DNA of 64,000 nucleotides. Origin: Oerskovia enterophila (GTDB lineage Bacteria; Actinomycetota; Actinomycetes; Actinomycetales; Cellulomonadaceae). Position 1 is the first letter of the stretch. The number at the start of each line of letters is the position of its first letter. The position numbers and the translations under genes are program-made. The notes under the pieces are model-generated. The model was not told the DNA's origin. It worked only from the letters and a program-made list of their open reading frames with translations, and made no database searches. The stretch is from assembly GCF_001692445.1 (NCBI RefSeq), contig NZ_MAQA01000001.1, positions 124,001-188,000 on the forward strand, in the 5' to 3' direction. Of this stretch, positions 7,103-35,912 are shown in pieces.

Positions 7103-7146
7103 GGGCACTCCTCATTGAGCGGTCGGGAACCCTTCGAGCCTCAGCC

Positions 7147-7371: not shown

Positions 7372-10300
7372 TCAACCGCAGTCGACCGCCTCGTAGCCGG
7401 TCACGATCTGCGTGGTGATCGGACCGGATCCTGTGTCGCCCGTCGCGGTCACGGTGACCTCGCCGGCCGGGATGCTCGCGGCACGGGTCGCGAAGGACTG
7501 CTGGGCCGACTTCCCGGGAGCCACGCCCGCGAAGGTCTTGCGGCCGTGCGGGGTCTCGACGACGACGTCCACGGGGACGTCCTCACCGTTGACCGCCCGA
7601 ACCGTGAGCGTCGTACGCCCCGCGACGCACTTGGCGGTGACCGTCGCCGTGACGGCGAGCTCGGGCTGCTCGACATCGGGCACGTCGAGGAAGATGCCGC
7701 CGATCACGGCGTTCGGGCCCGTGGCCTTGTCGGCCTTGACCCGGACCGAGGACTCGATGCGGTAGGTGAGCCACACGCCCGCCGCGTTGTCCGCGACCGA
7801 GAACGCCGGGTAGAGGACCGAGCCGTCGGCCCGCAGGACCTGGACGTCCTGCGTCCTCGCCGTGTCGTGGCTGTTGACGTAGACCGACAGGTCGTAGGCC
7901 GAGCCCTCGGGGACCGTGACGTCGACCGCCGCCCCGGCACCGAACCAGGTCGATGCGCGACGCGCGGCGCCGTCGGGCGGGACCTGGAGCGCCGAACGCT
8001 TGGTGGTGCTCTGCTCCCACGTCCAGGCCTGCGTCCCCGTGACCGGAGCCACCGTGACGCCCTGGGGCAGCTGCGTCCCGATCTGAGGGATCGCGTAGCC
8101 CGCCGTGCCGTACTTCCCGATCCAGTCACCCTGGGTCGAGGTGTCCTGACGAGGTGCGCCCTCGGGCGGGACGCCGACGCCGGACCCGACGGCCTCGAAC
8201 ACGTCGAGCGTCATCGACCAGTTGACCCCGGGGTTCGAGCGGAAGACCAGGTAGACGTCGTGCGTCCCGGCGGGGGCGGTGATCGGCGTCGGGTCCGTCT
8301 CCTTGAACGTGAACCATCCGCCCGTGCTGTTCACGGGCGTCGTGGCCACGAGCTGACCGGTCGGCGAGCCCAGACGCATCTCGATCCGCCCGCCTCCCTC
8401 GGGACCGGCCGACACGCGGTAGCGCACGGCGTCGATCCCCTGGAAGTTCATGTCCTCGTAGCGCAGCCAGTCGTCGTCCTGGATGTCGCCGACGTACTGA
8501 CCGAGCTCGGCCGCCGCGTTGTTCTCGACCGCGACCCCCTTGACCTCGTCCCAGTAGTGCGCCTGGAAGCGCGTGGGGCGGTAGACGTTGGTCGCGCTCG
8601 TCGTGATCGGCTGGACGCCCGCGGCCCCGCCCTTGTCGGTGTAGCGCGCGTCGATGACCCAGAACGCGTCCGCCTCGAGGTGTCCCTCGTCGAGGATCGT
8701 CGAGGCCTCGCCCTCGCACGCGTTGACGGGCAGCGTGGGGTGCGCGTGCTCGTCGTGGCCCAGGGCCGGCTGGACCGTGACGTCCTTGCAGTCGATCTGG
8801 CCGTCCTCGGCGTCGGTCACCTCGACCTTCCACGGCAGGACGTCGTTCCAGCGGAAGAAGCTGCCGTTCGGCGGAGCCGTGATCGTCACGACCGGGCTCG
8901 TGTTGCCCACCACGATCGGGACCGTGGCGGTACCCGTCTTGGCGGACTCCGTCTTCTCCGTGACCGTCAGGCGCGCCTCGAAGTTGCCGTTGGTCGTGTA
9001 GACGTGGGTCGGGTTCTGCTCGGTCGAGGTGCTGCCGTCGCCGAAGTCCCAGGCGAACTCGAGCTCGTCGCCGTCACGGTCGACGGTGCCCTCGCTCGAG
9101 AACGTCACGGACAGCGGGGCGAGACCGGTCGTGACGTCGGCCGTGGCCTGGGCCGTGGGGGCCCTGCCGTCGGCCGCGTAGTCGACGCGGTACAGGCCCG
9201 AGTTGGGGTTGTCACGGCCGAAGCCGCCGCCCCACTCGAGGAGGTACAGCGCGCCGTCGGGCCCGAACTGCAGGTCGAGCGGCGAGAGGAACTGCTGGCT
9301 CGAGAGCACCGGGTTGATCGCGAGCAGCGAACCGTCCGCGGCCAGCGGGAACTCCTTGATGAAGTTGCGCCCCCACTCGAAGAACAAGGGCGTGCCGCTG
9401 AAGTACTCGGGCCACTTGCGGTCCGAGTCGAGCGCCTCGTCGAAGTGGTAGACGGGACCAGCCATGGGGGCGCCCGCACCGCTGCCGAGCTGCGGGAACT
9501 CGGCCGAGGCGCCGTACGAGTAGTAGACCTCGGCGGGGACCGACGGCGGGAGCTCGGTCAGGCCGGTGTTGTTCGGGGAGGTGTTGACCGGGTTGGCGCA
9601 GTCGAACTTCGCACCCGACGTGCTCGTCACGAAGTCGAAGTCGTTGTACGCGATGTTGTTCGCGTGGCAGTACGGCCAGCCGTAGTTCCCCGGGGCCTTG
9701 ATGGACTGCCACTCGACGTAGCCCGCGGGGCCACGGTTCGGGTTGGCGCTGCCGGCGTCGGGCCCGTAGTCGGCGAGGTAGACCGTGCCGTCGACGTCGA
9801 CCGTGAAGCGGAACGGGTTGCGGAAGCCCATCGCGTAGATCTCGGGACGGGTCTTGTCCGCGGTGTCCTCGGCCTCCGGGAAGAGGTTGCCCTCGGGGAC
9901 CGAGTAGGTGCCGTCCGGCTCGGGCGTGATGCGCAGGAGCTTGCCGCGCAGGTCGTTGCTGTTGGCCGACGTGCCCTGGGCGTCGAAGTGCGCGCGGCCC
10001 GGACGCTCGTCGATCGGGGTGTAGCCCGAGGACTCGAACGGCACCACGTCGTCGCCGACCGACAGCCACAGGTTGCCCTGGCCGTCGAAGCGCAGCGTGC
10101 CGCCCGTGTGCCCGATCTCCTTGTCGTCACGGCCGGCGGGGATCTCCAGCATCACGACCTCGGAGTCGAGCTTCATGGTGTTGCCCTCCATGGTGAAGCG
10201 GGAGAGCCGGTTGACCGAGCCGCCGTCCTGGGGGGAGTAGTAGAGGTAGACCCAGTCGTTCTGCTCGAACTGCGGGTCGAGCGCCAGGCCGAGCATGCCG

Positions 10301-11286
10301 TCCTCGCCGCCCCCGTACACGGGGATCGTCGCGGCCGTCACGGTGCTCTTGAGCTCCGGGTCGTAGATCCGGACCTGGCCGCGGACGAGCTCGGTGAAGA
10401 AGACGCGGCCGTCGCCCGCGACCGCGATGCCCCAGGGGGCCGAGGTGTTGGTGTCGAGCGGCACCTTGTCGAAGTTGTCCCATACCGTGCCGCCGCACGC
10501 TCCGGGCTCGACGCCCGCCGCGTAGCGGATGCCGCCGAGGGCGTGCTTGCGCACGTTCTCCTCGCTGTACGACGACTTGGCGTGGCCGACCGAGGTGACC
10601 CAGGTCCGGCCGCCCTCGTAGTCCGAGCACCACGTCACGGGGTGGTCGAGCATGCGTCCGGGGGTCGAGGTGGGGACGCTCGTCGGGTCGAGCTGGGCCA
10701 GGACGTGCTTGTCGCCACGGACCGACTTGGTGAAGCCGTACCACTCCTCGTTGCGCTCCCAGCGCTCGGGCAGGTCGGCGGTCGACGGGTGCTCGCGGTC
10801 GACGACGGTCATCTCGCCCGGCGTCCCGGCGGCGGAGTGCGCGGTGAACTCGGTGCCGATGAGCGCACGGTAGAACGGGAAGCCCGGCTCCATGTCGAGC
10901 GGGTTGTGCATGGCGACGACGCCGCCGCCCCCGCGCACGTACTTCTCGAAGGCCTTCTCCTCGGCCGGGTTCCAGACGTCCCCGGACGCCTGGGCCAGCA
11001 CGATCACGTCGAAGTCCGCGAGGCCCTCGTCGGTGAAGAGCGTCGAGTCGGTCGCCTGGACGACCTCGAATCCGCCCGCCGCAGCGAGCTCGTCCCACAT
11101 GGCCTTGGCCTCGGGGACCGAGTCGTGCACGAACCCGGCCGTCTCCGAGAAGATCAGCGCCTTGAACTCCGGGTTCTCGGGGTGCTCGTGCCCCTCGTGG
11201 GCGACGGCCGGCGCGGTCAGCACCCCGGCCAGTCCTGTCGACAGTGCCAGGCAGGCCGCGATGGCTGCCCCTCTGCGCGTTCTCAT
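7372..11286 (-). CDS. Secreted ThuA / PQQ-type sugar dehydrogenase / PKD / CBM fusion with CG module
   Basis: A 1304-residue secreted multidomain protein. After a signal peptide (cleavage near APAVAHE) come: a ThuA-like trehalose-utilisation domain (about 40-265: FKALIFSETAGFVHDS, GGGVVAMHNP); a glucose/sorbosone-type PQQ-dependent dehydrogenase propeller (about 270-705: GGEDGMLGLALDP, GHTGGTLRFD, YAMGFRNPFRF); a PKD domain (about 708-790, WDFGDGS); an Ig-like segment; a CBM6-like domain (about 900-1030, DDWLRYEDMNF); a jelly-roll segment of a type found near rhamnosidases (about 1045-1190); and the terminal Cys...DCG module. ATG 11286 has GGGAG 6 bases upstream. It is divergent from the sugar isomerase, with a shared operator between them. 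Oxidation of extracellular sugars or glycosides is likely, but cofactor and substrate are unproven. Confidence 0.92.
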   Translation of the reverse strand: MRTRRGAAIAACLALSTGLAGVLTAPAVAHEGHEHPENPEFKALIFSETAGFVHDSVPEAKAMWDELAAAGGFEVVQATDSTLFTDEGLADFDVIVLAQASGDVWNPAEEKAFEKYVRGGGGVVAMHNPLDMEPGFPFYRALIGTEFTAHSAAGTPGEMTVVDREHPSTADLPERWERNEEWYGFTKSVRGDKHVLAQLDPTSVPTSTPGRMLDHPVTWCSDYEGGRTWVTSVGHAKSSYSEENVRKHALGGIRYAAGVEPGACGGTVWDNFDKVPLDTNTSAPWGIAVAGDGRVFFTELVRGQVRIYDPELKSTVTAATIPVYGGGEDGMLGLALDPQFEQNDWVYLYYSPQDGGSVNRLSRFTMEGNTMKLDSEVVMLEIPAGRDDKEIGHTGGTLRFDGQGNLWLSVGDDVVPFESSGYTPIDERPGRAHFDAQGTSANSNDLRGKLLRITPEPDGTYSVPEGNLFPEAEDTADKTRPEIYAMGFRNPFRFTVDVDGTVYLADYGPDAGSANPNRGPAGYVEWQSIKAPGNYGWPYCHANNIAYNDFDFVTSTSGAKFDCANPVNTSPNNTGLTELPPSVPAEVYYSYGASAEFPQLGSGAGAPMAGPVYHFDEALDSDRKWPEYFSGTPLFFEWGRNFIKEFPLAADGSLLAINPVLSSQQFLSPLDLQFGPDGALYLLEWGGGFGRDNPNSGLYRVDYAADGRAPTAQATADVTTGLAPLSVTFSSEGTVDRDGDELEFAWDFGDGSTSTEQNPTHVYTTNGNFEARLTVTEKTESAKTGTATVPIVVGNTSPVVTITAPPNGSFFRWNDVLPWKVEVTDAEDGQIDCKDVTVQPALGHDEHAHPTLPVNACEGEASTILDEGHLEADAFWVIDARYTDKGGAAGVQPITTSATNVYRPTRFQAHYWDEVKGVAVENNAAAELGQYVGDIQDDDWLRYEDMNFQGIDAVRYRVSAGPEGGGRIEMRLGSPTGQLVATTPVNSTGGWFTFKETDPTPITAPAGTHDVYLVFRSNPGVNWSMTLDVFEAVGSGVGVPPEGAPRQDTSTQGDWIGKYGTAGYAIPQIGTQLPQGVTVAPVTGTQAWTWEQSTTKRSALQVPPDGAARRASTWFGAGAAVDVTVPEGSAYDLSVYVNSHDTARTQDVQVLRADGSVLYPAFSVADNAAGVWLTYRIESSVRVKADKATGPNAVIGGIFLDVPDVEQPELAVTATVTAKCVAGRTTLTVRAVNGEDVPVDVVVETPHGRKTFAGVAPGKSAQQSFATRAASIPAGEVTVTATGDTGSGPITTQIVTGYEAVDCG

Positions 11287-21677: not shown

Positions 21678-24600
21678 TCACTGTCCGCAGGTCACCGCCG
21701 CGTGCTCGACGTCGGTGACGGTCTCGCGCACGTCCTGCGCGTCGCTCGGCCGCGCGGTCACGGTGACGCTCCCGGCCTCGACGTCGGCGGACCGGGTCGA
21801 GAAGGTCTGCGCGGCGGACCTGCCGGGGGCGACCTGCGAGAAGGTCTTGGTGCCCCACGCCGTCGCCACGACGACGTCGAGGGGGACCGAGTCGTCGTTG
21901 ACCACGCGGACCACGACGGCCCCGGTCCGGCCCGTGCACTGCGCCCTGGCGCTCGCGACGACCTCGACCCCCCGGTCGACGATCGGCTCGGAGGTGCCGA
22001 CCGCGAACAGGTGCATCACGCCCTTGTCGGTCCCCTGCGGCAGGATCACCGACTCGATGGTGCGGGCCGGGTCGACCGACACCGGCACCGTCCCGAAGAC
22101 CTTGGCCTGGGTCGTGTCCTTGGTGCCGTTGGCCTTGTTGCGACCCGTCGTGGTCACGACCGAGACGTTGCCGAACTGGTAGGTGGTCCCCGGGGTCCAG
22201 TCCGTCAGCTCGACCTGGACGTCCTGCCGGGTGCCGTCGGTGTAGACGACCGTCGCCGTGCCCTTGGCCGGCCCGTTGGTGGCCAGGCCGAGGAACGAGA
22301 TCTTCTCGACCCGGACGCCCATCGGGACGCTCTGGCCGTGGGGGATCCAGTTGTCGGGCGCACCCGGCGCGGCATCCGGCCAGGTGTAGGTGACTCCCGT
22401 CGTGCCCAGGGGGAGGCGAGCGCCGGGAGTCGCGCCGGCCGCGGCGAGGTCAGCGCGGGACAGGGTGTTGTCGGACGCGTCGATCGAACCCGTCGCGCCC
22501 TTGCCGTCCGTCGTCGTGCCGATGTTGTTGAAGACGTCGCTCCCGTCGGTGAACGACGGCGGGACGTCGGCCTTCCCGGTGCCCCAGGTGCCCGGGGTCG
22601 AGCGCATGGTGAGGTCGAGCGTGCCGCCCTGCTGGGTGAAGGACTCCGGGAGCCACGAGGCCGAGGACGTGACGCCGTCGACCCGGAGCGAGTCCACGTA
22701 GCGTGACCCGCTCGACGCTCCGGGCGCCGTGAGCGAGATGACCCGGGGCGCACCGTCGGCGACCCGGCTCGTGATGGTGACCTGGTCGAACGCGGGCGAG
22801 GACACGAGCAGCTCGGCGCGGCCGAAGATCGCCGGGTAGAGGCCGAGGTTGGACCAGACGAACCACGACGAGAGCGAGCCCAGGTCGTCGTTGCCGGGAA
22901 CGCCCGTGGGAGCGGTCGTGAAGAGCTCGGCCCGCGCCCGGTCCAGCGCGTCCGTCGTCTTCGCGGGCTGCTGGAGCCAGTGGTAGACCCAGGGCGTCGA
23001 GGTGCTGGGCTGGTTGCTCATGTAGGCGTACGGAGTGTTGTAGACGCCTGCGTCGAGCCGCGTGAGGTGCTTGTCGAGATCGGCCGTGACCTTCTCCACC
23101 CCGCCACGCTTGGCGATGAGGGTGCTCATGTTCTGCGGGACGGCCCAGCCGTACTGGTAGCCGGTCGCCTGGTCGAACTGGTTGCCCCGCTCACCGAGGT
23201 TGAACCCGCGGTCGAAGCCGTTGCGACCGCGGGGACGGATCTCGCGGGTGACCGGGTCGAAGACGTTCTGCCAGTTCTGTGCGCGCTGCATGAACCGGTC
23301 GTACGCTGCGTCGTCACCCAGACGCTGGGCGAGCTGGGCGATCGAGAAGTCGTTGGTCGCGTACTCGAGCGTCGTCGAGGTCGAGACGGCGTTCTTCGCG
23401 TTCTCGACGAACCCGAGGCCCGCGAACTGGTACCCGTTGTCGCGCTTGTTCCGCGCGGGGTCGAGAGGCAGGGCCTGCGAGGAGACGAGGTGCGCGAGCG
23501 CCGCCTCGCGGTCGTAGTCGGTGCTGCCGAACGCGTCGATGACCGAGAGGACGGTCGGCAGGGAGTCTCCGCTCATCTTCTGCTGCGCCACGCCGAGGTG
23601 CGGCCAGTTGGGCCAGTAGCCCGACTGGCCCACCAGGTCGACGATCGACTGGTTGATGTCGGACGCGACGTCGGGGAAGAGCATCGCGACGAGCTGTGCC
23701 TGGCCGCGGTACATGTCCCAGCCGGAGTACGTCGCGTAGTGGTGACGCCCGGGTTCCACCTGGCGGACCGTGCCGTCGTAGCCGAAGTACTCGCCGTTGA
23801 CGTCGTCGTAGGTGTTCGGGTGCAGCAGCGAGTGGTAGAGCGCCGTGTAGAGGGTCACCTGCTCGGCCTCGGTGCCCCCCGCGACGTCGATCGTGCTCAG
23901 GGCGTCGCGCCAGGTGGTCTCCGCCGAGGTGCGCGCCTCGTCGAACGTCACGTGGCCCGCCTCCGTGGCGGCGTTCTCCGCGGCGTTCTCGATGCTCACG
24001 TAGGACAGGCCTGCCTTGACCGTGACCTCGGCCCCGTCGGGGAAGGTCACGAAGACGCCCGCACCGTGCCGCTTCTGTGCGGACGCGCTGGTCGAGCCGA
24101 CCGTGACGTCCCCGCCGGTCCAGGTGCCGGACGAGACGATCGGCTGGTCGAACGTCGCCGAGTAGTACGCCTTGTAGCGCCCGCCGCCCTCGCAGACCGG
24201 TGCGGTCTCGACCCAGCCGGAGATCGTGCTGCCCTCGATGGTCACCCCGCTGCCGAAGACGCTGTTGTTCGAACCCGTGGTGTTGAAGATCAGGGTCGAC
24301 GAGTCGGCGTCCGCGGGGAAGTCGAAGCGGCTGATCGCGGTGCGGGTCGTCGCGGTGAGCTCGGTGGACACGCCGTTCGCGAGGTCGACCGAGTAGTACC
24401 CGGGTTCGCCGACCTCGTCCGCGTGGTCGAACGCGAGGTAGTACGGCTTGATGTCGGCGCCGGGGGAGGACGGGAGAGCGCCCTGGGCGGTGAGGGGGCC
24501 CGCGTAGGGCAGGACGGGAAAGTCGAACGCGCCGTTGCGGTTGACGCATCCCGTCCCGGACAGGCGGTTCATGCCGAACCCGCGGATCTTGTCGGCGCTG

Positions 24601-24920
24601 TACTCGTAGCCGCCACGCATGTCGCCGTCGCGGCTGCGGAAGGTCGTGGGGCTCGACTGCACCATGCCGAAGGGCACCGTCGCGCCGGGCCAGGTGTTGC
24701 CGTACGCCGCGTTCCCCTTGTTCTGGGAGAAGTCCTCGGCGGTACCGATCCAGGGATCGACGGCAGCGAAGGGGTCCAGGTTCACGAGGTCGGCGCCGGC
24801 GACGGGCTGGGCCGTGGCGGTGCTCGGGGTCGTGAGGCCGAGGCCTGTGACGAGGGCCGCCGCCGCGACCAGCGCGGGCAGACGGCCGCGGGTGCGGGAG
24901 GGGGAGGCTGGGACGGGCAA
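21678..24920 (-). CDS. Secreted GH92 alpha-mannosidase-family enzyme with Gln at the acid position (putative phosphomannose-uncapping type)
   Basis: An exported GH92 enzyme of 1080 residues; the family is Ca2+-dependent and inverting. After the signal peptide come the N-domain (VDPWIGT, NTWPGATVPFGMVQ), barrel motifs YSGWDMYRGQ and TLEYATNDFSIAQLAQ, and the base region GNDDLGSLSSWFVW (Asp 679). Where classical GH92s have Glu (in E-G-N-x-x-Q-Y, BT3990 Glu533) this protein has Gln 584 (DQATGYQYGW). The characterised Cellulosimicrobium mannose-1-phospho-6-mannose hydrolase is reported to have the same change. A beta-sandwich accessory domain follows (about 790-985), then the shared C-terminal module (ARAQCTG...VTCGQ). 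I use TTG 24920, because GAGAGGA (24935-24929) is 8 bases upstream; GTG 24950 has no ribosome site. It is divergent from lacI. Confidence 0.93.
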   Translation of the reverse strand: MPVPASPSRTRGRLPALVAAAALVTGLGLTTPSTATAQPVAGADLVNLDPFAAVDPWIGTAEDFSQNKGNAAYGNTWPGATVPFGMVQSSPTTFRSRDGDMRGGYEYSADKIRGFGMNRLSGTGCVNRNGAFDFPVLPYAGPLTAQGALPSSPGADIKPYYLAFDHADEVGEPGYYSVDLANGVSTELTATTRTAISRFDFPADADSSTLIFNTTGSNNSVFGSGVTIEGSTISGWVETAPVCEGGGRYKAYYSATFDQPIVSSGTWTGGDVTVGSTSASAQKRHGAGVFVTFPDGAEVTVKAGLSYVSIENAAENAATEAGHVTFDEARTSAETTWRDALSTIDVAGGTEAEQVTLYTALYHSLLHPNTYDDVNGEYFGYDGTVRQVEPGRHHYATYSGWDMYRGQAQLVAMLFPDVASDINQSIVDLVGQSGYWPNWPHLGVAQQKMSGDSLPTVLSVIDAFGSTDYDREAALAHLVSSQALPLDPARNKRDNGYQFAGLGFVENAKNAVSTSTTLEYATNDFSIAQLAQRLGDDAAYDRFMQRAQNWQNVFDPVTREIRPRGRNGFDRGFNLGERGNQFDQATGYQYGWAVPQNMSTLIAKRGGVEKVTADLDKHLTRLDAGVYNTPYAYMSNQPSTSTPWVYHWLQQPAKTTDALDRARAELFTTAPTGVPGNDDLGSLSSWFVWSNLGLYPAIFGRAELLVSSPAFDQVTITSRVADGAPRVISLTAPGASSGSRYVDSLRVDGVTSSASWLPESFTQQGGTLDLTMRSTPGTWGTGKADVPPSFTDGSDVFNNIGTTTDGKGATGSIDASDNTLSRADLAAAGATPGARLPLGTTGVTYTWPDAAPGAPDNWIPHGQSVPMGVRVEKISFLGLATNGPAKGTATVVYTDGTRQDVQVELTDWTPGTTYQFGNVSVVTTTGRNKANGTKDTTQAKVFGTVPVSVDPARTIESVILPQGTDKGVMHLFAVGTSEPIVDRGVEVVASARAQCTGRTGAVVVRVVNDDSVPLDVVVATAWGTKTFSQVAPGRSAAQTFSTRSADVEAGSVTVTARPSDAQDVRETVTDVEHAAVTCGQ

Positions 24921-25261
24921 GGGACGTGTCCTCTCGGGGGTGCTGCCCACCCCGGGGCGCGCCCGGGAGCGGCGTCGCGCGTGGGGTGCGCGGCGCCGTC
25001 GGGCAGGTTCGGGGGTGAGGCAGGTGGTGCGAGGGTCGGGCGGGTGTCGGGTCTGTCGCCGCGGGTTGGGCGGCGGGCTGGTCCGCTGTCCTGTCTGTGT
25101 GCTCGTCTCGACTTGACAGCGCTGTCATGGTCGGGTGTACTCACCCTATACACACCGGGGTCGTCCTGACCAGCCCCTCGTTGCGACGAGTCGGTCAGGT
25201 GGCGCTCCGGGCCGGGACGCGCTGGGGTGTGGAAGAATCCCCGCCAGTCAATCGTGCGGGG
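24921..25261. other. Divergent GH92 / lacI regulatory region
   Basis: No coding signal. It holds the leaders of the divergent GH92 and lacI genes, the LacI operator at 25114-25127, and an AT-richer patch (TATACA, 25147-25152) that may belong to a promoter. GC-rich short repeats fill 24951-25080. Confidence 0.6.
25114..25127. promoter_or_regulatory. LacI-family operator 1 (lacI/GH92)
   Basis: The perfect 14-bp palindrome TGACAGCGCTGTCA. It overlaps a -35-like TTGACA (25113-25118) for the rightward lacI gene and lies upstream of the leftward GH92 unit. The CG-centred shape is typical of LacI/GalR operators. Confidence 0.85.
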
Positions 25262-26338
25262 GTGGATGTGGTGGCCAAGGACGGCCGAGCTGCACGCGGT
25301 GGAGGTCGACCGACCCTCGCCGCGGTGGCCGAGGCCGCAGGAGTGAGTCTCAAGACCGCCTCCCGCGTGCTCAACAACGAACCCAGCGTCTCCGAGTCGA
25401 CCCGGCTCAAGGTCCGTGCAGCGGCCGACGCGCTCGGCTTCCGTCGCAACGCCGTGGCGGCCGACCTCGCGCGCGGAGGCGTCTCGCGGCTCGTCGGCTT
25501 CGTCACCGGTGACATCGCCAACCCGTTCTACTCGGACCTCGCGAGCGGGATCGAGCGCGAGCTGCGCAAGCACGGGCTCCAGCTCATCACGGCGAGCTCC
25601 GACGAGGACGTGGACCGTGAGCGCGAGCTGATCGACGCGCTCATCGAGCGCCGCGTCGCGGCTCTCTTCATCGCCCCGACGGCCGACGACCACTCGTACC
25701 TGCGTTCCGAGCTCGCCGACGGCGTGCCGATCGTCTTCCTCGACCGCCCGCCGGGCGGGATCGACGCTGACACCGTGGTGCTCGACAACCGGGCCGGGGC
25801 CGCGGCCGCCGCGCGCCACCTCGTCGACCAGGGGCACCGCAGGATCGCGCTCGCGGGGGACCTCCCGCGGCTCTGGACGTTCCGCGAGCGTCGTGAGGGC
25901 TTCGTCAACGCCTTGCGGGACGCAGGCATCGGCGACCCCGAGCGCTACGTGCGCGACGGGCTGCACGACGCCGAGACGGCACGTGTCGCGGTCGAGGAGC
26001 TGCTGGCGCTCGACGAGCCGCCCACCGCGATCCTGACGGCCAACAACAAGATCACCCAGGGGGCGCTCCGGGCGCTGCACCCCGCGGCTCGTGGGGCGCG
26101 GCGCGACGTCGCCCTCGTCGGGTTCGACGACTTCGAGCTAGCGGACATCCTCCAGGTCAGCGTCGTCGGCTACGAGGTCTCCGCGATGGGCCAGGAGGCC
26201 GCGCGGCTCGCTGTGGCGCGCATCGAGTCGCCCGGGGAGCCTGCGCACCTGCGTGTCGTGCCCACGGTCCTCATCGCGCGCGGGTCGGGCGAGATCGCCC
26301 TGGCGGCGCCCCTGGAGGGCGTGCCGGCAGTCGGCTGA
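25262..26338 (+). CDS. LacI-family transcriptional repressor
   Basis: A 358-residue regulator. The N-terminal HTH is RPTLAAVAEAAGVSLKTASR followed by VLNNEPSVSESTRLKVRAAA and the hinge helix ADALGFRRNAVAADLARG, a canonical LacI/GalR head. The periplasmic-binding-protein-like effector domain follows (GFVTGDIANPFYSDLASGI, VVLDNRAGAAAAARHLVDQG, VALVGFDDFELADIL). Three in-frame GTGs (25262, 25268, 25271) are possible starts; the ribosome site is weak, and I give the most upstream. Its own promoter carries the 14-bp palindrome also found before the ABC transporter and the second GH92 gene. It is therefore inferred to repress mannan use, with a sugar (mannose or mannobiose?) as inducer. Confidence 0.94.
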   Translation: MDVVAKDGRAARGGGRPTLAAVAEAAGVSLKTASRVLNNEPSVSESTRLKVRAAADALGFRRNAVAADLARGGVSRLVGFVTGDIANPFYSDLASGIERELRKHGLQLITASSDEDVDRERELIDALIERRVAALFIAPTADDHSYLRSELADGVPIVFLDRPPGGIDADTVVLDNRAGAAAAARHLVDQGHRRIALAGDLPRLWTFRERREGFVNALRDAGIGDPERYVRDGLHDAETARVAVEELLALDEPPTAILTANNKITQGALRALHPAARGARRDVALVGFDDFELADILQVSVVGYEVSAMGQEAARLAVARIESPGEPAHLRVVPTVLIARGSGEIALAAPLEGVPAVG

Positions 26339-26855: not shown

Positions 26856-28145
26856 ATGCGTAACGGATTGCGTGTCGCTGGGGCACTGGTGGGCACCGCT
26901 GCCCTCCTGGCCCTCGCAGCTTGCAGCGGAGACACCGGCAACGACTCGACCGAAGGTGGCACGGACGCCGCCTCGGGCGGCAACGTCGAGGTCTTCACCT
27001 GGTGGGCAGCCGGTTCGGAGAAGGCAGGGCTCGACGCCCTCGTCACCGTCTTCGACGAGCAGCACCCCGACTTCACCTTCGAGAACGGCGCGGTCGCCGG
27101 CGGTGCCGGTTCGGCCGCGAAGGACCTCCTCCAGACCCGCCTCCAGGCCAACGACCCGCCGGACACGTTCCAGGCGCACGCCGGCAAGGAGCTCACGGAC
27201 TACATCGACGCCGCGCAGCTCGAGGACATCTCGGACCTGTACGACGAGTACGGCGTCAAGGACGTCTTCCCCGCGGACCTGATCGACCTCCTCACGGTGG
27301 ACGGCAAGATCTACTCGATGCCCTCCAACATCCACCGCTCCAACATGGTCTGGGCCAACCCTGCCGTGCTGACGGAGGCGGGCCTCGACCCGGCCGCCAC
27401 GTACGAGACCATGGACGACTGGTTCGTCGCCCTCGACGCCGTCAAGGCCACGGGCAAGACCCCGCTCTCGGTCGCCACGACGTGGACCCAGGTCAACCTG
27501 CTCGAGACGGTCCTCATGGCCGACCTGGGCGCCGAGGCATACAACGGCCTGTGGGACGGTTCGACCGACTGGGAGAGCCCCGAGGTCACGGCTGCTCTCG
27601 AGGACTTCGAGAAGCTCATGAGCTACACCAACACCGACCGTGACGGTCTGGACTGGCCCGAGGCGACGCAGCTCGTCATGGACGGCCAGGCAGCGTTCAA
27701 CGTCATGGGCGACTGGGCCGTGGCGGCGTTCGAAGAGGCCGGCAAGACCGCCGGCACCGACTTCACGTACTTCCCGGTCCCCGGGACGGACGGCATGTTC
27801 GGCTTCCTCGCCGACTCGTTCACGCTCCCCGTGGGTGCCAAGAACGCCGACGGCGCCAAGGCCTGGATCGAGACCGTGTCCAGCCTCGAGGGCCAGACCG
27901 CCTTCAACAAGGCCAAGGGCTCCATCCCGGCCCGTACCGACGCGAACCCTGCTGACTTCTCCGAGTACCAGCAGACCGCCATCACGTCCTTCGCGGACGA
28001 CACGATCGTCCCGTCGCTCGCTCACGGTGCGGCTGCCTCGATCGCCGTCCTGAACGGCATCTCGGACGCGACGAGCAAGTTCACCTCCGGTGCCTCCGAC
28101 CTCGCGCAGTACCAGGCCGACCTGGCCGCCGCTGCCGCCGAGTAA
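26856..28145 (+). CDS. Carbohydrate ABC transporter substrate-binding lipoprotein
   Basis: A 429-residue family-1 extracellular solute-binding protein (CUT1 type). The signal peptide ends in the lipobox LLALAAC, with Cys 23 as lipid anchor. A Gly/Thr/Ser linker leads to the bilobal domain with FTWWAAGSEKAGLDALVTVF, QVNLLETVLMADLG, GQAAFNVMGDWAVAAFEEAG and PVPGTDGMFGFLADSF. ATG 26856 follows the 26825 operator and an AGTAGGA ribosome site. Two permease genes follow after a 17-bp hairpin. No ATPase gene is present, so a shared MsiK-type ATPase elsewhere presumably powers it, which is normal for actinobacterial CUT1 systems. The ligand is inferred as mannose or manno-oligosaccharide from neighbours. 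Confidence 0.94.
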   Translation: MRNGLRVAGALVGTAALLALAACSGDTGNDSTEGGTDAASGGNVEVFTWWAAGSEKAGLDALVTVFDEQHPDFTFENGAVAGGAGSAAKDLLQTRLQANDPPDTFQAHAGKELTDYIDAAQLEDISDLYDEYGVKDVFPADLIDLLTVDGKIYSMPSNIHRSNMVWANPAVLTEAGLDPAATYETMDDWFVALDAVKATGKTPLSVATTWTQVNLLETVLMADLGAEAYNGLWDGSTDWESPEVTAALEDFEKLMSYTNTDRDGLDWPEATQLVMDGQAAFNVMGDWAVAAFEEAGKTAGTDFTYFPVPGTDGMFGFLADSFTLPVGAKNADGAKAWIETVSSLEGQTAFNKAKGSIPARTDANPADFSEYQQTAITSFADDTIVPSLAHGAAASIAVLNGISDATSKFTSGASDLAQYQADLAAAAAE

Positions 28146-28210: not shown

Positions 28211-28340
28211 CCCGGACGGTCCGCCCCACCCCGCCGTACCCGCAGCTCGTTTCCACCGCACCGTCCCCGGCAGGGCCCCGTCGCACCTCTGTGCGCCGTG
28301 AGAGCCGTCGGGAGGTGCCCACACCTTGGGAGGATCACCG

Positions 28341-29246
28341 GTGATCCAGTCCGCTCGACGATGGGGCCCGCCACTGCTCCTCGTCGCCCCGTCACTGATC
28401 TTGGTGGGGGTCTTCGTCTACGGCCTCATCGGGATCAACTTCGCCACCTCGACCACTGACATGCACAAGGCTGCGCAGTCCACGGGGCAGGCCCCGGTCA
28501 CGCGGGTCGGCCTCCAGAACTACCTCGACCTGCTCGCGAGCCCGGAGTTCCAGCACTCGCTGATGAACCTCCTGATCTACACCGTGGTCTTCCTGGTCGG
28601 CACCATGGTCGTCGGCTTCGTCTGGGCCTGGCTCCTCGACAAGCCCATCAAGGGCGAGGGCTTCTTCCGCGCCGTCTACCTCTTCCCCATGGCGGTCTCG
28701 TTCGTCGCCTCGGGTGTCGTGTGGCGCTGGCTCCTCAACTCCAACCAGGACGAGAAGGCGAGCGGGCTCAACCGGCTGTTCCAGATGATCGGTCTGGACG
28801 CGCTCCAGAACAACTGGTGGAACAACGTCACGTTCGGCATCGCGGCGATCGCGATCCCCGCGATCTGGCAGCTCTCCGGCTACGTCATGGCGCTCTTCCT
28901 CGCCGGGTTCCGGGGCATCCCCGAGGAGCTGCGCGAGGCGGCCCGCATCGACGGCGCCAACGAGTGGAAGCTCTACCGCTACGTGCTGTTCCCGCAGCTC
29001 ACGCCGATCGCCCTCTCGGCCCTCATCATCGTGGGCCACATGTCCCTCAAGGCGTTCGACCTCATCATGTCGATCTCCAAGCCCTCGAACTACCAGACCA
29101 AGGTTCCGGCCGTCGACATGTACGTCTTCAAGTCCAGCTTCGACTACGCGAACGCCGCGGCCGTCGGTGCGATCCTGCTGGTCATCGTGGCCTTCGTGAT
29201 CGTGCCCTACCTGATCTCCCTGAACCGCAAGGAGAAGATCCGATGA
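28341..29246 (+). CDS. Sugar ABC transporter permease (MalF-like)
   Basis: A 301-residue CUT1 inner-membrane permease. Six hydrophobic segments are visible (for example LLLVAPSLILVGVFVYGLIGI and LIYTVVFLVGTMVVGFVWAWLL). The cytoplasmic ATPase-docking loop is ELREAARIDGANEWKLYRYV, the EAA motif. GTG 28341 is chosen because GGGAGG (28328-28333) is 7 bases upstream; an in-frame TTG at 28326 overlaps that ribosome site. The stop overlaps the next start as ATGA (29243-29246), so the two permeases are translationally coupled and form a heterodimer. Confidence 0.93.
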   Translation: MIQSARRWGPPLLLVAPSLILVGVFVYGLIGINFATSTTDMHKAAQSTGQAPVTRVGLQNYLDLLASPEFQHSLMNLLIYTVVFLVGTMVVGFVWAWLLDKPIKGEGFFRAVYLFPMAVSFVASGVVWRWLLNSNQDEKASGLNRLFQMIGLDALQNNWWNNVTFGIAAIAIPAIWQLSGYVMALFLAGFRGIPEELREAARIDGANEWKLYRYVLFPQLTPIALSALIIVGHMSLKAFDLIMSISKPSNYQTKVPAVDMYVFKSSFDYANAAAVGAILLVIVAFVIVPYLISLNRKEKIR

Positions 29247-30157
29247 CCGCCGTCGCCACGCCCGTCGAGGCGCAGACCCCCGGCTCGGGATCGGGCTCCG
29301 GAGCGGCAGGCTCGCGCCGGCAAAAGAAGCCCGTCCAGCGCTTCTCCGTGGGGCGCACGCTCCGCTACGCGATCCTCATCCTGTTCGTGCTGATCGTCCT
29401 CGTGCCCGTCTACGTCCTGTTCGTGACGAGCTTCAAGGGGGCGGGCGACGCGGCCCCGAGCCGCGCGTGGAACCTTCCCCAGGTGTGGACCACGGAGAAC
29501 TGGCAGGCGGCCTGGACCGCGCTGTCTCCGGCGATCCTGCGCACGCTGCAGATGGTGATCCCCTCGGCGATCATCGCGGCGTTCCTCGGGTCGCTCAACG
29601 GGTTCGTGCTCTCGCGCTGGACCTTCCGCGGGGCGAACCTCGTCTTCACGCTCATCCTGTTCGGCATGTTCATCCCGTACCAGGCGGTGATCATCCCGCT
29701 CAACCAGCTGGTCCAGGACCTCAACCTGCCGAGCGGCATCCCCACGCTGATCCTGCTGCACGTGATCTACGGCCTGCCGATCACGACCCTGATCTTCCGC
29801 AACTACTACCAGACCGTCCCGAACGAGCTCATCGAGGCCGCCCGCGTCGACGGCGCGGGCATGCTGCGCACGTACTGGTCGATCGTCCTGCCGATCTCGA
29901 TCCCGAGCTTCGTGGTCGTGCTCATCTGGCAGTTCACCTCGGCGTGGAACGACTTCCTCTTCGCGGTGTTCTTCTCCTCGAGCCAGAACGGCCCGGTCAC
30001 GCTCGCGCTCAACAACCTCGCGAACGGTGCCCTGCTCCAGAACTACGGCGTCTCGATGGCGGGGGCCCTGTTCGCCTCGCTCCCGACGCTCATCGTCTAC
30101 ATCCTGCTCGGCAAGTACTTCATGGGCGGCCTCATGTCCGGCTCCGTGAAGGGCTGA
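29243..30157 (+). CDS. Sugar ABC transporter permease (MalG-like)
   Basis: A 304-residue second permease of the CUT1 importer. A basic, Gly/Ser-rich N-terminal tail precedes TM1 (YAILILFVLIVLVPVYVLFV). Further segments and the EAA loop ELIEAARVDGAGMLRTYW follow, with the conserved C-terminal GKYFMGGLMSGSVKG. The start is fixed by the four-base overlap with the upstream permease. A long terminator-like hairpin at 30163-30207 follows the stop, so the downstream GH92 gene is likely expressed mainly from its own operator-bearing promoter. Confidence 0.94.
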   Translation: MTAVATPVEAQTPGSGSGSGAAGSRRQKKPVQRFSVGRTLRYAILILFVLIVLVPVYVLFVTSFKGAGDAAPSRAWNLPQVWTTENWQAAWTALSPAILRTLQMVIPSAIIAAFLGSLNGFVLSRWTFRGANLVFTLILFGMFIPYQAVIIPLNQLVQDLNLPSGIPTLILLHVIYGLPITTLIFRNYYQTVPNELIEAARVDGAGMLRTYWSIVLPISIPSFVVVLIWQFTSAWNDFLFAVFFSSSQNGPVTLALNNLANGALLQNYGVSMAGALFASLPTLIVYILLGKYFMGGLMSGSVKG

Positions 30158-30443: not shown

Positions 30444-33400
30444 ATGAGCTGGTACCCACCCACGCACGAACGCCCGACGGCGGATGCGCCGTCGGGCAGC
30501 AAGCCCACCTCTCCCGGCACACCCGCGGGCAAGGGCCGGCGCCGCATCGCGGGCGTCCTCGCGGCCGGCCTCGCCCTGCCCATGCTCCCGCTCGGCGTCG
30601 GGACGGCCTCGGCCGCACCCGAGCCCGGCGACTTCTCGACGTCGTTCGAGACCGGTGACGCCGCCGCTCTCGACACGACCGTCGCCCAGCGCGACGGCGC
30701 GCCCTGGCAGTCCAACGTCACCGGACCCGTCAGCACGCTGCCCGGCAGCGCGCTCGGCAAGCTCGCGGGCGTGACCGCGAGCGGCGAGAACCTCCCCAAC
30801 GAGGGCGCGGCCAAGCTCGCCGACGACAACTCGGGCACCAAGTGGCTCACCCGGACCACGACCGGCTGGGTCGCCTACGCGTTCACCGAGCCCGTGCGGA
30901 TCACGGGCTACTCGATGACGTCGGGCGACGACGCCGAGGGGCGCGACCCCAAGAGCTGGACCCTGGAGGGGTCCACGGACGGCACCACGTGGGTCCCGCT
31001 CGACCAGCGGACCAACGAGGACTTCCCCCAGCGCAAGCAGGCCCGGGTCTTCGAGGTCACGACGCCCGGCACCTACCAGCACTACCGCCTCAACGTCACC
31101 GCGAACTCGGGCGAGCCGCTCCTCCAGCTCGCGGACTGGAACCTCTCGACCGACCTGAACGCTGCGCCCGCGCAGACGCCCATGGTCACCAAGGTCGGTG
31201 CCGGCCCGTCGAGCGGCCCGACCATCAAGACCAACGTCGGCTTCACGGGCACCAAGGCCCTGCGCTACGCGGGCAGCCAGCTCGCCGACGGGCCGTCGAG
31301 CGCGACCAACATCCTGTACGACGACGTCGACGTCGCCGTGGGCGAGGACACGCGCCTGAGCTACACGATCTTCCCCGAGCTCCTCAACGACCTCGCGTAC
31401 CCCTCGACGTACGCGTCGGTCGACGTGCGGTTCACCGACGGGACGTACCTGTCCGAGCTCGGCGCGCGCGACCAGCACGACACCCCGTTCTCGCCCGAGG
31501 GCCAGGGCACGGGCAAGATCCTCTACGCCAACCAGTGGAACTCCATCCAGGTGGACCTGGGCGGCGTCGCGACCGGCAAGACGGTCGACGAGGTCCTGCT
31601 CGGCTACGACAACCCCACGGGCAAGGCCGGCACGCGCTTCCAGGGCTGGGTCGACGACATCGCGTTCACCGCGAGCCCCGAGCGGATCGACGGGTCGAGC
31701 CTGACCAACTACGTCGACACGCGCCGCGGCACGTTCGCGACCGGCGGGTTCTCGCGCGGCAACAACATCCCCGCGTCCGCGGTGCCCAACGGCTTCAACT
31801 TCTGGACGCCCATGACCGACGCGGCGTCCCAGAGCTGGCTCTACGCGTACCAGCAGCAGAACAACGCGAACAACAAGCCTCAGCTCCAGGGCATCGGGGT
31901 CTCGCACGAGCCCAGCCCCTGGATGGGTGACCGCAACCAGCTCGCGTTCCTGCCCGCGGCCGGCGGCGGCACGCCCAACGCCACGCTCGGCACGCGCGCG
32001 CTCGAGTTCACGCACGACGACGAGACCGCGCAGCCCGACTACTACGGCGTGAGGTTCACCAACGGCATCCAGGCCGAGGTGACCCCGACCGACCACGGCG
32101 CGGTGCTCCGCTTCTCCTACGCGACCGACCAGGGCCAGGTCCTCGTCGACAGCGTGAGCGGCGACGCCAAGCTGGCCTACGACGCCGCGAGCGGCACGCT
32201 CTCCGGCTGGGTCGACGGCGGCAGCGGACTCTCGGCCGGACGCTCGCGCATGTTCATCTCCGGGACGTTCGACCGCCTGCCCAGCGCGGTCGGGACGGCC
32301 GCTGGCAACCGCGCCAACGCCCGGTTCGCGACGTTCGACACCTCGTCGGACAAGACCGTCGAGCTCCGCGTGGCCACGTCCTTCATCAGCCAGGCGCAGG
32401 CCCGCAAGAACCTCGACCTCGAGGTCACGGGCAGGTCCTTCGAGGACGTGCGCTCCGCGGCGCAGTCCGCCTGGAACGACCGACTGAAGGTCGTCGAGGT
32501 CGAGGGCGCCAACGAGGACAAGCTCACGACGCTCTACTCCAACCTCTACCGCCTCAACCTCTACCCCAACTCGCAGTTCGAGAACACGGGCACGGCCGAG
32601 GCGCCGAAGTTCCAGTACGCGAGCCCCGTCGCCGCCAAGACCGGCAGCGCGAGCGACACCACGACGAACGCCAAGATCGTCGACGGCAAGATCTACGTCA
32701 ACAACGGCTTCTGGGACACCTACCGCACGGCCTGGCCCGCCTACTCGCTCCTGTACCCGGAGCTGGCGGCCGAGCTCGTCGACGGGTTCGTCCAGCAGTA
32801 CCGTGACGGCGGCTGGGTCGCCCGCTGGTCCTCCCCGGGCTACGCGGACCTCATGACCGGCACCAGCTCGGACGTGGCCTTCGCCGACGCGTACCTCAAG
32901 GGCGTCCCGCTCGTGGACCCGCTCGCGACGTACGACGCCGCGCTCAAGAACGCGACCGTCCTGCCGCCGAACAACGCCGTGGGCCGCAAGGGCCTCGACA
33001 CGTCGCAGTTCCTCGGCTACACCCAGGCGTCCACGCACGAGTCCGTGTCGTGGGGCCTCGAAGGGCTCATCAACGACTTCGGTATCGGCAACATGGCCGC
33101 GGCCCTCGCCGAGGACCCCGCCACGCCCGACGAGCGCCGCGAGCAGCTGCGCGAGGAGTCCGAGTACTTCCTCGAGCGTGCGACGCACTACGTCAACCTG
33201 TTCGACCCGGCCACGGGCTTCTTCCAGGGCCGCAACGCCGACGGGACGTTCGAGAAGTCGCCCGAGACGTTCAACCCCGAGGACTGGGGCGGTCCCTTCA
33301 CCGAGACCAGCGGCTGGAACTTCGCGTTCCACGCCCCCCAGGACGGTCAGGGCCTCGCCAACCTCTACGGCGGTCAGGACGGCCTCGAGGCCAAGCTCGA

Positions 33401-35912
33401 CCTGTTCTTCAGCACCCCGGAGAAGGCCCCCAACGGCGGCATCCACGAGCGTCTCGAGGCACGTGACGTCCGCATGGGCCAGTGGGGCATGAGCAACCAG
33501 GTCTCGCACCACATCCCCTACCTCTACGACGCGGCCGGCGCCCCGTCCAAGGCGCAGGAGAAGGTCCGCGAGTCGCTGCGCCGTCTGTTCGTGGGCAGCG
33601 ACATCGGCCAGGGCTACCCCGGCGACGAGGACAACGGCGAGATGTCGTCGTGGTGGATCCTGTCCTCGCTCGGCATCTACCCCTTGCAGGTCGGCTCGGA
33701 GGAGTACGCGATCGGCTCGCCGCAGTTCACCAAGGCGACCGTGCACCTCGAGAGCGGCGACCTGGTCGTCAACGCCCCGCAGAACAGCGTCGACAACGTC
33801 TACGTCCAGTCGCTCACGGTCGACGGCGAGGCCCACACCTCGACGTCGATCAAGCACTCCGACCTGGTCGGCGGGACCACGCTCGACTTCGAGATGGGCC
33901 CCGAGCCCTCCGCGTGGGGCACGGGCGAGGACGACGCACCGCCGTCCTTGACCACCGGTGACGAGGCGCCCGAGTCCGACACGGACGTGACGACGTCGGG
34001 CCTGGGGACGGTGACCGTCTCCGACGGCACGCCGGCCGCCCAGCTCGCGTCGCTCACCGACAACACGTCACAGACCCGCACGACCTTCACGACGGGCACG
34101 CCCGTCGTCACCTGGAAGGCCGCAGGCCTCCAGCCGACGGTCACGTCCTACACCCTGACCTCGGGCGTGACCGGCACGGCCGCACCCAAGGCCTGGAAGG
34201 TCGAGGGCTCGAACGACGGCCAGACCTGGACGACGCTCGACGAGCGCACCGACCAGCAGTTCCGCTGGGCAGTCCAGACGCGGCCGTTCACGCTCGCCGA
34301 GCCCGCCGCGTACTCGCAGTACCGCGTGGCGATCACGGCGACCTCGGGCGAGGGGGCGCTCGCGCTCGCCGAGCTCGAGCTGCTCGCCGACCCCAAGGCC
34401 TCGACCGGCGCCGAGCTCACGCTCACGGCCGGCCAGGACGTGGCGACCACGACCGGCACCGAGGTCAAGGCGTCGCTCGCGACGCTCGTCGGGGTCACGC
34501 CCGAGGAGGTCGCCGCAGGCGACGTCTCCACGACCGTGACCTTCGGGGACGGCAGCGAGCCCGCCACCGGGATCCTCACCAAGGTCCAGCTCGGCGGGTA
34601 CACCGTCACCGCACCGCACACCTTCGCCGCACCGGGCGTCTACCCGGTCACGGTCACGGTCACGCGCGGCGACAAGACCGTCACGGCCTCGCTCGACGTG
34701 TCCGTCGAGCTGGTCCGGGAGGGCTCGCTCCTCGCGGCCTACGACAACGTGTGCATCGGCGACGTCGGGACCACGTTCGGCAGCTGCGACGGCCAGGGCG
34801 TGTTCTTCGACCGGGCCCAGCTCGCGGCGAAGGGCTTCGTGCAGGGCCAGCGCGGCACGGTGCCGGGCACGGACCTCGCGTTCGACGTCCCGGCAGTCCC
34901 GGTGGCGCAGCCCGACAACGCGACGGGCGACGGCCAGACCATCGAGATCGACGTCCCCGCGGACGCCGAGCAGCTCTCGGTGATCGGCACGGGCACGGAG
35001 AAGAACCAGGTGGCCTCCGGGACGCTGACGTTCGACGACGGCTCGTCGCAGCCCATCGACCTGAGCTTCGGCGACTGGTCGGGCGCTGCCCGCAACCCGG
35101 TGTACGGCAACATCCCCGTCGCGGTGACCGACCACCGCCTGCGCGGTGGCAGCCCGCAGACCGGCACCCCCGCCGCGATCTTCGCGACGGCGCCTGTCAC
35201 GCTCCCCGAGGGCAAGCGGCCCGTGAGCCTCACGCTCCCGGACCAGCCGGGGTCGCTCTCGAGCGACGGACGCATCCACGTCTTCACGGTCGCCTCCGAC
35301 GGAACCCCGGTGGAGCACGCTCCGCTGGTCGTCGAGGCGGCTGCGGGCGTGAGCGTCGCGGCCGGTGCCTCGCTCGAGGCGACGCTCGCCACCGTGACCG
35401 GTGGACGCGCGACGGCCGGTTCGCCGCTGCGGGCGGCGATCACGTGGGGCGACGGCAGCGACGTGACCCCCGGGACGGTCGTCCCGGGTGACGTCGCCGG
35501 CACGGTCAAGGGTGCGCACACCTACGCGCAGCCCGGGACCTACACCGCCTACGTGACCGTCGACGACGGGTACGCGAGCAAGAGCACCCCCGTGACCGTC
35601 ACGGTCACCGAGGCCGCTCCGACGCTCGACGTCGCGACGACCGTCAAGACGCAGTGCACGGCCAAGAAGGTCACGCTGTCCGTCACCGCGGTCAACGGGG
35701 AGTCCTTCCCCGTGACGATCAAGGTCGTCACCCCGTTCGGCACCAAGACGTTCACGAACGTCGGGTCGGGCAAGAGCGCGCACCAGTCGTTCGCGACGCG
35801 TGCGGGCTCGATCGAGGCGGGCACCGCGACGGTGACCGCCACGGCGACGGTCGACGGTGAGGAGGTCGTCGTCACCAGCGAGGTCGCCTACGGTGCGGCC
35901 ACCTGCGGCTAG
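30444..35912 (+). CDS. Secreted multidomain GH92 alpha-mannosidase with CG module
   Basis: A giant exported enzyme of 1822 residues. Its Arg-rich leader has a cleavage region near ASAAPEP. Order: discoidin-like domain (about 85-230, YSMTSGDD); LamG-like sandwich (about 240-415); GH92 N-domain and barrel (about 420-1180). Visible are NNGFWDTYRTAWPAYSLLYP, SHEPSPWMG, the probable acid Glu 954 in FTETSGWNFAFHAPQD, and the base region GDEDNGEMSSWW (Asp 1061/1063). This acid-base spacing is close to characterised GH92s. Then come a second discoidin-like domain, two PKD-like segments (HTFAAPGVYPVTV, HTYAQPGTYTAYV) around a beta-sandwich similar to one in the other GH92, and the terminal module (KTQCTAK...AATCG). 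It should remove terminal alpha-mannose. ATG 30444 follows AAGGAG. Confidence 0.94.
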   Translation: MSWYPPTHERPTADAPSGSKPTSPGTPAGKGRRRIAGVLAAGLALPMLPLGVGTASAAPEPGDFSTSFETGDAAALDTTVAQRDGAPWQSNVTGPVSTLPGSALGKLAGVTASGENLPNEGAAKLADDNSGTKWLTRTTTGWVAYAFTEPVRITGYSMTSGDDAEGRDPKSWTLEGSTDGTTWVPLDQRTNEDFPQRKQARVFEVTTPGTYQHYRLNVTANSGEPLLQLADWNLSTDLNAAPAQTPMVTKVGAGPSSGPTIKTNVGFTGTKALRYAGSQLADGPSSATNILYDDVDVAVGEDTRLSYTIFPELLNDLAYPSTYASVDVRFTDGTYLSELGARDQHDTPFSPEGQGTGKILYANQWNSIQVDLGGVATGKTVDEVLLGYDNPTGKAGTRFQGWVDDIAFTASPERIDGSSLTNYVDTRRGTFATGGFSRGNNIPASAVPNGFNFWTPMTDAASQSWLYAYQQQNNANNKPQLQGIGVSHEPSPWMGDRNQLAFLPAAGGGTPNATLGTRALEFTHDDETAQPDYYGVRFTNGIQAEVTPTDHGAVLRFSYATDQGQVLVDSVSGDAKLAYDAASGTLSGWVDGGSGLSAGRSRMFISGTFDRLPSAVGTAAGNRANARFATFDTSSDKTVELRVATSFISQAQARKNLDLEVTGRSFEDVRSAAQSAWNDRLKVVEVEGANEDKLTTLYSNLYRLNLYPNSQFENTGTAEAPKFQYASPVAAKTGSASDTTTNAKIVDGKIYVNNGFWDTYRTAWPAYSLLYPELAAELVDGFVQQYRDGGWVARWSSPGYADLMTGTSSDVAFADAYLKGVPLVDPLATYDAALKNATVLPPNNAVGRKGLDTSQFLGYTQASTHESVSWGLEGLINDFGIGNMAAALAEDPATPDERREQLREESEYFLERATHYVNLFDPATGFFQGRNADGTFEKSPETFNPEDWGGPFTETSGWNFAFHAPQDGQGLANLYGGQDGLEAKLDLFFSTPEKAPNGGIHERLEARDVRMGQWGMSNQVSHHIPYLYDAAGAPSKAQEKVRESLRRLFVGSDIGQGYPGDEDNGEMSSWWILSSLGIYPLQVGSEEYAIGSPQFTKATVHLESGDLVVNAPQNSVDNVYVQSLTVDGEAHTSTSIKHSDLVGGTTLDFEMGPEPSAWGTGEDDAPPSLTTGDEAPESDTDVTTSGLGTVTVSDGTPAAQLASLTDNTSQTRTTFTTGTPVVTWKAAGLQPTVTSYTLTSGVTGTAAPKAWKVEGSNDGQTWTTLDERTDQQFRWAVQTRPFTLAEPAAYSQYRVAITATSGEGALALAELELLADPKASTGAELTLTAGQDVATTTGTEVKASLATLVGVTPEEVAAGDVSTTVTFGDGSEPATGILTKVQLGGYTVTAPHTFAAPGVYPVTVTVTRGDKTVTASLDVSVELVREGSLLAAYDNVCIGDVGTTFGSCDGQGVFFDRAQLAAKGFVQGQRGTVPGTDLAFDVPAVPVAQPDNATGDGQTIEIDVPADAEQLSVIGTGTEKNQVASGTLTFDDGSSQPIDLSFGDWSGAARNPVYGNIPVAVTDHRLRGGSPQTGTPAAIFATAPVTLPEGKRPVSLTLPDQPGSLSSDGRIHVFTVASDGTPVEHAPLVVEAAAGVSVAAGASLEATLATVTGGRATAGSPLRAAITWGDGSDVTPGTVVPGDVAGTVKGAHTYAQPGTYTAYVTVDDGYASKSTPVTVTVTEAAPTLDVATTVKTQCTAKKVTLSVTAVNGESFPVTIKVVTPFGTKTFTNVGSGKSAHQSFATRAGSIEAGTATVTATATVDGEEVVVTSEVAYGAATCG

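Follow-up and report, generated by a model that had tools for sequence, protein, structure and literature searches.

A GH92 protein of Oerskovia enterophila with glutamine at the catalytic-acid position: a predicted mannosyl-phosphodiester hydrolase with phosphatase-fused relatives

The gene and its altered acid position

The window analysed here is a 64,000-nucleotide stretch of the Oerskovia enterophila genome (contig NZ_MAQA01000001.1, positions 124,001 to 188,000). It contains a gene for a secreted protein of glycoside hydrolase family 92 (GH92), designated P0001, which is considered below as a putative hydrolase of mannosyl phosphodiesters. Its residues of interest are listed, three of them with their counterparts in BT3990, a GH92 alpha-mannosidase of Bacteroides thetaiotaomicron.

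21678..24920, minus strand: gene of P0001, a secreted GH92 protein of 1080 amino acids (aa) with glutamine at the acid position (open reading frame (ORF) call, Pfam and structural model)
23169..23171, minus strand: codon of Gln584, at the catalytic-acid position (BT3990 Glu533)
22884..22886, minus strand: codon of Asp679, the conserved catalytic base (BT3990 Asp644), in GNDDLG
23577..23579, minus strand: codon of Lys448, aligned with BT3990 Cys393 at the boundary of subsites -1 and +1
24564..24566, minus strand: codon of Arg119, arginine in 47/47 members of the P0001 clade

The reading frame begins with a TTG start at 24920, upstream of which there is a GAGAGGA motif, and encodes a signal region, the GH92 N and catalytic domains (aa 54-773), an accessory region of ~190 aa and a C-terminal domain of ~100 aa. 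Pfam scores of 190 bits for the GH92 N domain and 409 bits for the GH92 C domain (cut-offs 34.5 and 24.6 bits) place the protein in the family. The AlphaFold2 model of its catalytic part (predicted local distance difference test (pLDDT) score 94.2) was superposed over ~680-700 residues on each of BT3130 (Z 48.5), BT3990 (Z 41.8) and CcMan5 of Cellulosimicrobium cellulans (Z 40.0). The model has the two-domain GH92 fold: solved GH92 structures scored Z 39-48 among the matches listed, while the next fold reached Z 15.

As had been claimed in an earlier, sequence-only reading of this DNA, Gln584 occupies the place of the catalytic acid. It pairs with BT3990 Glu533 when aligned to PDB 2wvx by HMMER as well as in multiple alignments, so that the usual general acid of the family is not present in P0001. 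This glutamate is customary rather than defining for GH92, since the accepted member CcMan5 does without it. According to the multiple alignment, glutamine is found at this position in 47/47 members of an actinobacterial clade that includes P0001, while 180 other GH92s have glutamate; such invariance means that Gln584 is neither a chance substitution nor a sequencing accident. The host genome (4.65 Mb) encodes five GH92s in total, and the other four all have glutamate here. The same reading had described the base region as intact, and it is: Asp679 within the motif G[ND][DE]D.G is present in all 46 clade members covering the column. Of 67 columns conserved among Glu-type enzymes (kept in at least 90% of the 180 sequences) 59 are retained in the clade, and the -1 site is intact. 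The +1 triad of BT3990 (Trp88, His584 and Glu585) has no counterpart in P0001, with Gly124 and gaps standing there in all 47 members. Replacement of the acid in BT3990 by alanine or glutamine removed much of its activity on alpha-1,2-mannobiose (PMC10167667), and a naturally occurring glutamine therefore suggests a substrate of another kind. The neighbouring Asp583 was considered as a replacement acid and ruled out, as the clade has Asn (20/47 members), Glu, Asp or His there.

Cationic residues and phosphatase domains

Position 448 is lysine or arginine in 46/47 clade members (one has a gap) and in 0/180 Glu-type sequences. In BT3990 Cys393 and the acid mark, together with the glycosidic atom, the boundary between subsites -1 and +1 (Thompson et al., PMC5930347). 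Since Gln584 is accompanied by Lys/Arg448, both residues framing the bond have been changed together, from acid to amide and from neutral to cation. The invariant Arg119 of the clade corresponds to histidine in 164/180 Glu-type enzymes. Based on these alignments, Lys448 and Arg119 are predicted to be ligands of a leaving-group phosphate, and Arg566 and Arg605 are further candidates for the phosphate site.

A phosphatase domain is carried in the same polypeptide by 24/47 clade members. These domains belong to two unrelated folds, the purple-acid type or, at either end of the protein, PAP2:

L124, L125, L127 and L128: C-terminal fusion of the purple-acid type (PF16656 + PF00149)
L131 (Cellulomonas sp. 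HZM): N-terminal fusion of a PAP2 domain
L180 and L220 (Actinomyces polynesiensis, Ancrocorticia populi): C-terminal fusion of a PAP2 domain

A scan of public genomes with a model built from the fused phosphatase domains revealed further fusions in Streptomyces, Microbacterium, Mycetocola, Nocardioides and one Micrococcaceae genome. Among Glu-type GH92 ORFs none was fused (0/81 and 0/52, that is 0/133). After thinning at 80% identity the ratio was 11/18 in the clade versus 0/33 for the Glu type (Fisher p 7e-7), in a test that counts related proteins as separate, although the kinds of fusion are dispersed through the clade's three branches. In nearly all complete fused domains the catalytic motifs are intact, namely the metal-ligand motifs GNH[ED] and GHDH of the purple-acid type and KX6RP, PSGH and RX5HXXXD of PAP2. 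Across these branches there are two subtypes of the purple-acid phosphatase and two ways of attaching PAP2, which points to repeated gain or exchange. That such close relatives carry these fusions is evidence of its own for a substrate containing phosphate.

The genome of O. enterophila itself has, on another contig, a separate gene for a secreted purple-acid phosphatase, situated ~3-5 kb from two other GH92s; its product is 51% identical to, and groups with, the domains fused in Streptomyces orthologues. At the locus of a CcMan5 orthologue (L135) the Pfam scan detected no phosphatase domain in the CcMan5-type ORF, and the phosphatase is a separate gene of the purple-acid type, which groups with the phosphatases fused in the P0001 clade. 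Fusions in one case and this gene in the other therefore tie two independent glutamine lineages to the same second activity. Within the available part of the literature, searched by titles, we found no paper joining GH92 with a purple acid phosphatase or metallophosphoesterase, and the combination may be noted elsewhere.

Two arrangements of another kind were also registered. In genomes of a CcMan5-bearing genus a PAP2-type phosphatase gene adjoins tandem Glu-type GH92s (L271:3500-5800 and L272:9118-11856). In Phytoactinopolyspora (L209 and L140, probably one record entered twice) a glutamine-type GH92 and a phosphatase are split over overlapping frames, owing to either frameshifts or assembly errors.

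Separate origins of glutamine in the family

The enzyme from Cellulosimicrobium that had been invoked as precedent is CcMan5 (CcGH92_5; PDB 2xsg/4aq0), which is reported to cleave a mannosyl phosphodiester (PMC5930347; PMC9246025). Its sequence, taken from 2xsg and recovered through a close homologue, does have the glutamate-to-glutamine change, at Gln536, and it shares with P0001 the GH92 fold and the base aspartate. It differs in having neither the K/R-M-x-G segment nor Arg119. The two proteins are only 27% identical, and P0001 is closer to Glu-type enzymes. Alignment and tree building with characterised GH92s, which the earlier reading had suggested, put glutamine in the acid column and the P0001 clade apart from CcMan5. 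In the tree built with the acid column masked there were three separate glutamine clades, and alternative topologies were compared by the approximately unbiased (AU) test. A single clade of all glutamine sequences was rejected (p-AU 4e-5), as was the joining of the P0001 clade with CcMan5 (p-AU 8.7e-5), so that P0001 cannot be taken for a CcMan5 orthologue. Thus the glutamate-to-glutamine change most likely arose at least three times, and the analogy drawn with CcMan5 holds for the mechanism and fails for kinship.

Members of the third glutamine clade (L013, L156, L159, L163, L164 and L165) have the acid-loop sequence FAQGTSATYTW, valine at the position of Lys448 and histidine at that of Arg119, and no phosphatase fusion was present among them. 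Glutamine alone was therefore rejected as a sufficient marker of the activity. Mutual exclusion of the two glutamine lineages was also tried and rejected: they occur in 15 and 28 of 222 family genomes with 3 shared, which is about the chance expectation when the comparison is limited to the 126 genomes that encode at least one GH92.

The alpha-mannosidases BT3990, BT3130 and BT3965 of B. thetaiotaomicron share with P0001 the fold, the -1 site and the base aspartate but differ in their glutamate acid and in cysteine at the place of Lys448; among solved structures BT3130 comes closest, with 31% identity. NnGH92 of Neobacillus novalis (7nsn) is, like P0001, a multidomain secreted GH92, but it is a Glu-type alpha-1,2-mannosidase distant from P0001 (179 bits) and close to the second GH92 of the window, P0003 (1326 bits). 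Secreted phosphatases of the purple-acid (PF16656+PF00149) and PAP2 (PF01569) types, fused to or encoded with glutamine-clade GH92s in relatives, lie outside P0001 here. With good though not full confidence, we regard the P0001 clade as another lineage of GH92s that uncap phosphomannan, evolved independently of CcMan5, marked by glutamine together with a Lys/Arg turned towards the bond to be cleaved, distributed across many actinobacterial genera and repeatedly forming single-chain GH92-phosphatase enzymes of two steps.

Surrounding locus and proposed activity

P0001 and the gene downstream of it are divergent from a LacI-family regulator, a sugar transporter of the ATP-binding cassette (ABC) type and P0003:

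17594..21625, minus strand: P0002, downstream of P0001 with a 52-bp gap; N-terminal region of ~600 aa and three CBM32/F5_F8 domains
25097..26338, plus strand: LacI-family regulator
26856..28145, plus strand: sugar ABC transporter binding protein
28326..29246, plus strand: sugar ABC permease 1, followed by permease 2 in the frame ending at 30157
30444..35912, plus strand: P0003, second GH92, with Glu954; NnGH92-like alpha-1,2-mannosidase with CBM32 and PKD domains

Taken together, the residues and gene associations make it probable that P0001 is a secreted exo-hydrolase of the GH92 type that requires calcium and cleaves alpha-mannosyl-1-phosphodiesters with inversion. Its targets are most likely mannose-alpha-1-phospho-6-mannose (Man-alpha-1-P-6-Man) caps, as borne by fungal mannan and by high-mannose glycans. 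The calcium requirement and the inverting mode are assigned by analogy with the family, and fungal mannosylphosphate is suggested as natural substrate by the company of P0003 and the chemistry of CcMan5 (PMC9246025). In the proposed reaction the leaving-group phosphate would be held by Lys448 and Arg119, and no general acid would be needed because phosphate departs without protonation. Water activated by Asp679 would attack C1, releasing mannose with inversion and leaving mannose-6-phosphate on the glycan. The uncovered phosphomonoester would then be taken off by a purple-acid or PAP2 phosphatase, which in many relatives is part of the same polypeptide and in this genome may be supplied by the separate purple-acid gene of the same subtype. 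Once uncapped, the chain could be trimmed of alpha-1,2-mannose by P0003, and the sugar may enter the cell through the ABC transporter. The earlier reading had noted that the neighbouring GH92 keeps Glu954, which we confirmed, and had proposed that the two enzymes divide the attack on yeast phosphomannan; this is plausible, given how closely P0003 is related to NnGH92, an alpha-1,2-mannosidase that has been characterised. The main claim of that reading is thus likely to be right, on stronger grounds than it had.

Several observations weigh against this assignment. P0001 has no phosphatase domain and its subclade is unfused, while Pfam found no phosphatase gene among the window proteins scanned. 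Unfused proteins make up 23/47 of the clade, and no such phosphatase was present near those checked. Arginine at position 119 also occurs in the Glu-type mannosidase BT3130, and the Lys/Arg448 signature is not that of CcMan5, the alignment of which is gapped there.

The evidence concerns the bond and not what follows the phosphate, and clade members sit in varied neighbourhoods. It is therefore conceivable, though unlikely, that the enzyme hydrolyses alpha-mannosyl-1-phosphodiesters of some other polymer, such as a mannosyl-phosphate repeat of bacterial or protozoan surfaces, or free alpha-mannose-1-phosphate esters. Fungal mannan is favoured by the NnGH92-like alpha-1,2-mannosidase of this locus, since NnGH92 acts on yeast mannan (PMC10167667), and by a Streptomyces relative (L172) whose gene lies next to those of GH64 and GH16-type glucanases directed at fungal walls. 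Glutamine in place of the acid is, on the other hand, a common means to cripple GH92s (PMC10167667; E494Q complex 7fe2), the NCBIfam "lectin" model NF035929 matches P0001 below its cut-off, and an active-looking phosphatase is fused in many members, all of which would suit a dead GH92 turned into a module that binds mannose or mannosylphosphate and guides a phosphatase or carbohydrate-binding domains. Loss of the base would be anticipated in such a pseudoenzyme, but Asp679 persists wherever the column is covered, most conserved columns are kept, and CcMan5 is reported to be active despite its glutamine (PMC9246025), so we consider this explanation quite improbable. Hardly credible is a conventional alpha-mannosidase in which some other residue serves as acid, or which acts slowly with no acid at all: the clade does have four acidic positions of its own (462, 506, 623 and 665), but none lies in the acid loop, position 583 is too variable for this role, and Lys/Arg448 and the phosphatase links would be left unexplained.

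Hydrolysis of mannosyl phosphodiesters by GH92 is already known from CcMan5, to our knowledge the only lineage of the family with this activity. CcMan5 serves to produce mannose-6-phosphate glycans on lysosomal enzymes that are expressed in yeast for use as drugs. What is new, within reach of the literature, is that the P0001 lineage is separate, carries a cationic signature and has members fused to phosphatases. With a phosphate site predicted to differ from that of CcMan5, it would supply dozens of new uncapping candidates, as well as natural controls for studying how GH92 shifts between glycosides and phosphodiesters as substrates. The fusions suggest a route by which soil actinobacteria may strip charged caps from fungal mannan, and the combination of Gln584 with Lys/Arg448 gives a sequence rule for annotating GH92s currently labelled as plain alpha-1,2-mannosidases.

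Some other features of the window deserve mention. The N-terminal ~600 residues of P0002 (19502-21400, minus strand) show 66-97% conservation across 12 related genomes and matched no Pfam, NCBIfam or PDB family. The model of P0002 is poor (pLDDT 37.5) and gave no function, with PDB matches confined to the carbohydrate-binding end; this region is possibly a new family of carbohydrate-active enzymes of mannan loci. The C-terminal domain of ~100 residues (21681-21974, minus strand, in P0001), which has no Pfam match, also ends P0002 and P0003 and recurs many times per genome across the genus, on large ORFs. Elsewhere in the window (7372-11286, minus strand) a protein combining ThuA, glucose/sorbosone dehydrogenase, PKD and CBM6 domains adjoins a GH20 hexosaminidase (4472-7108).
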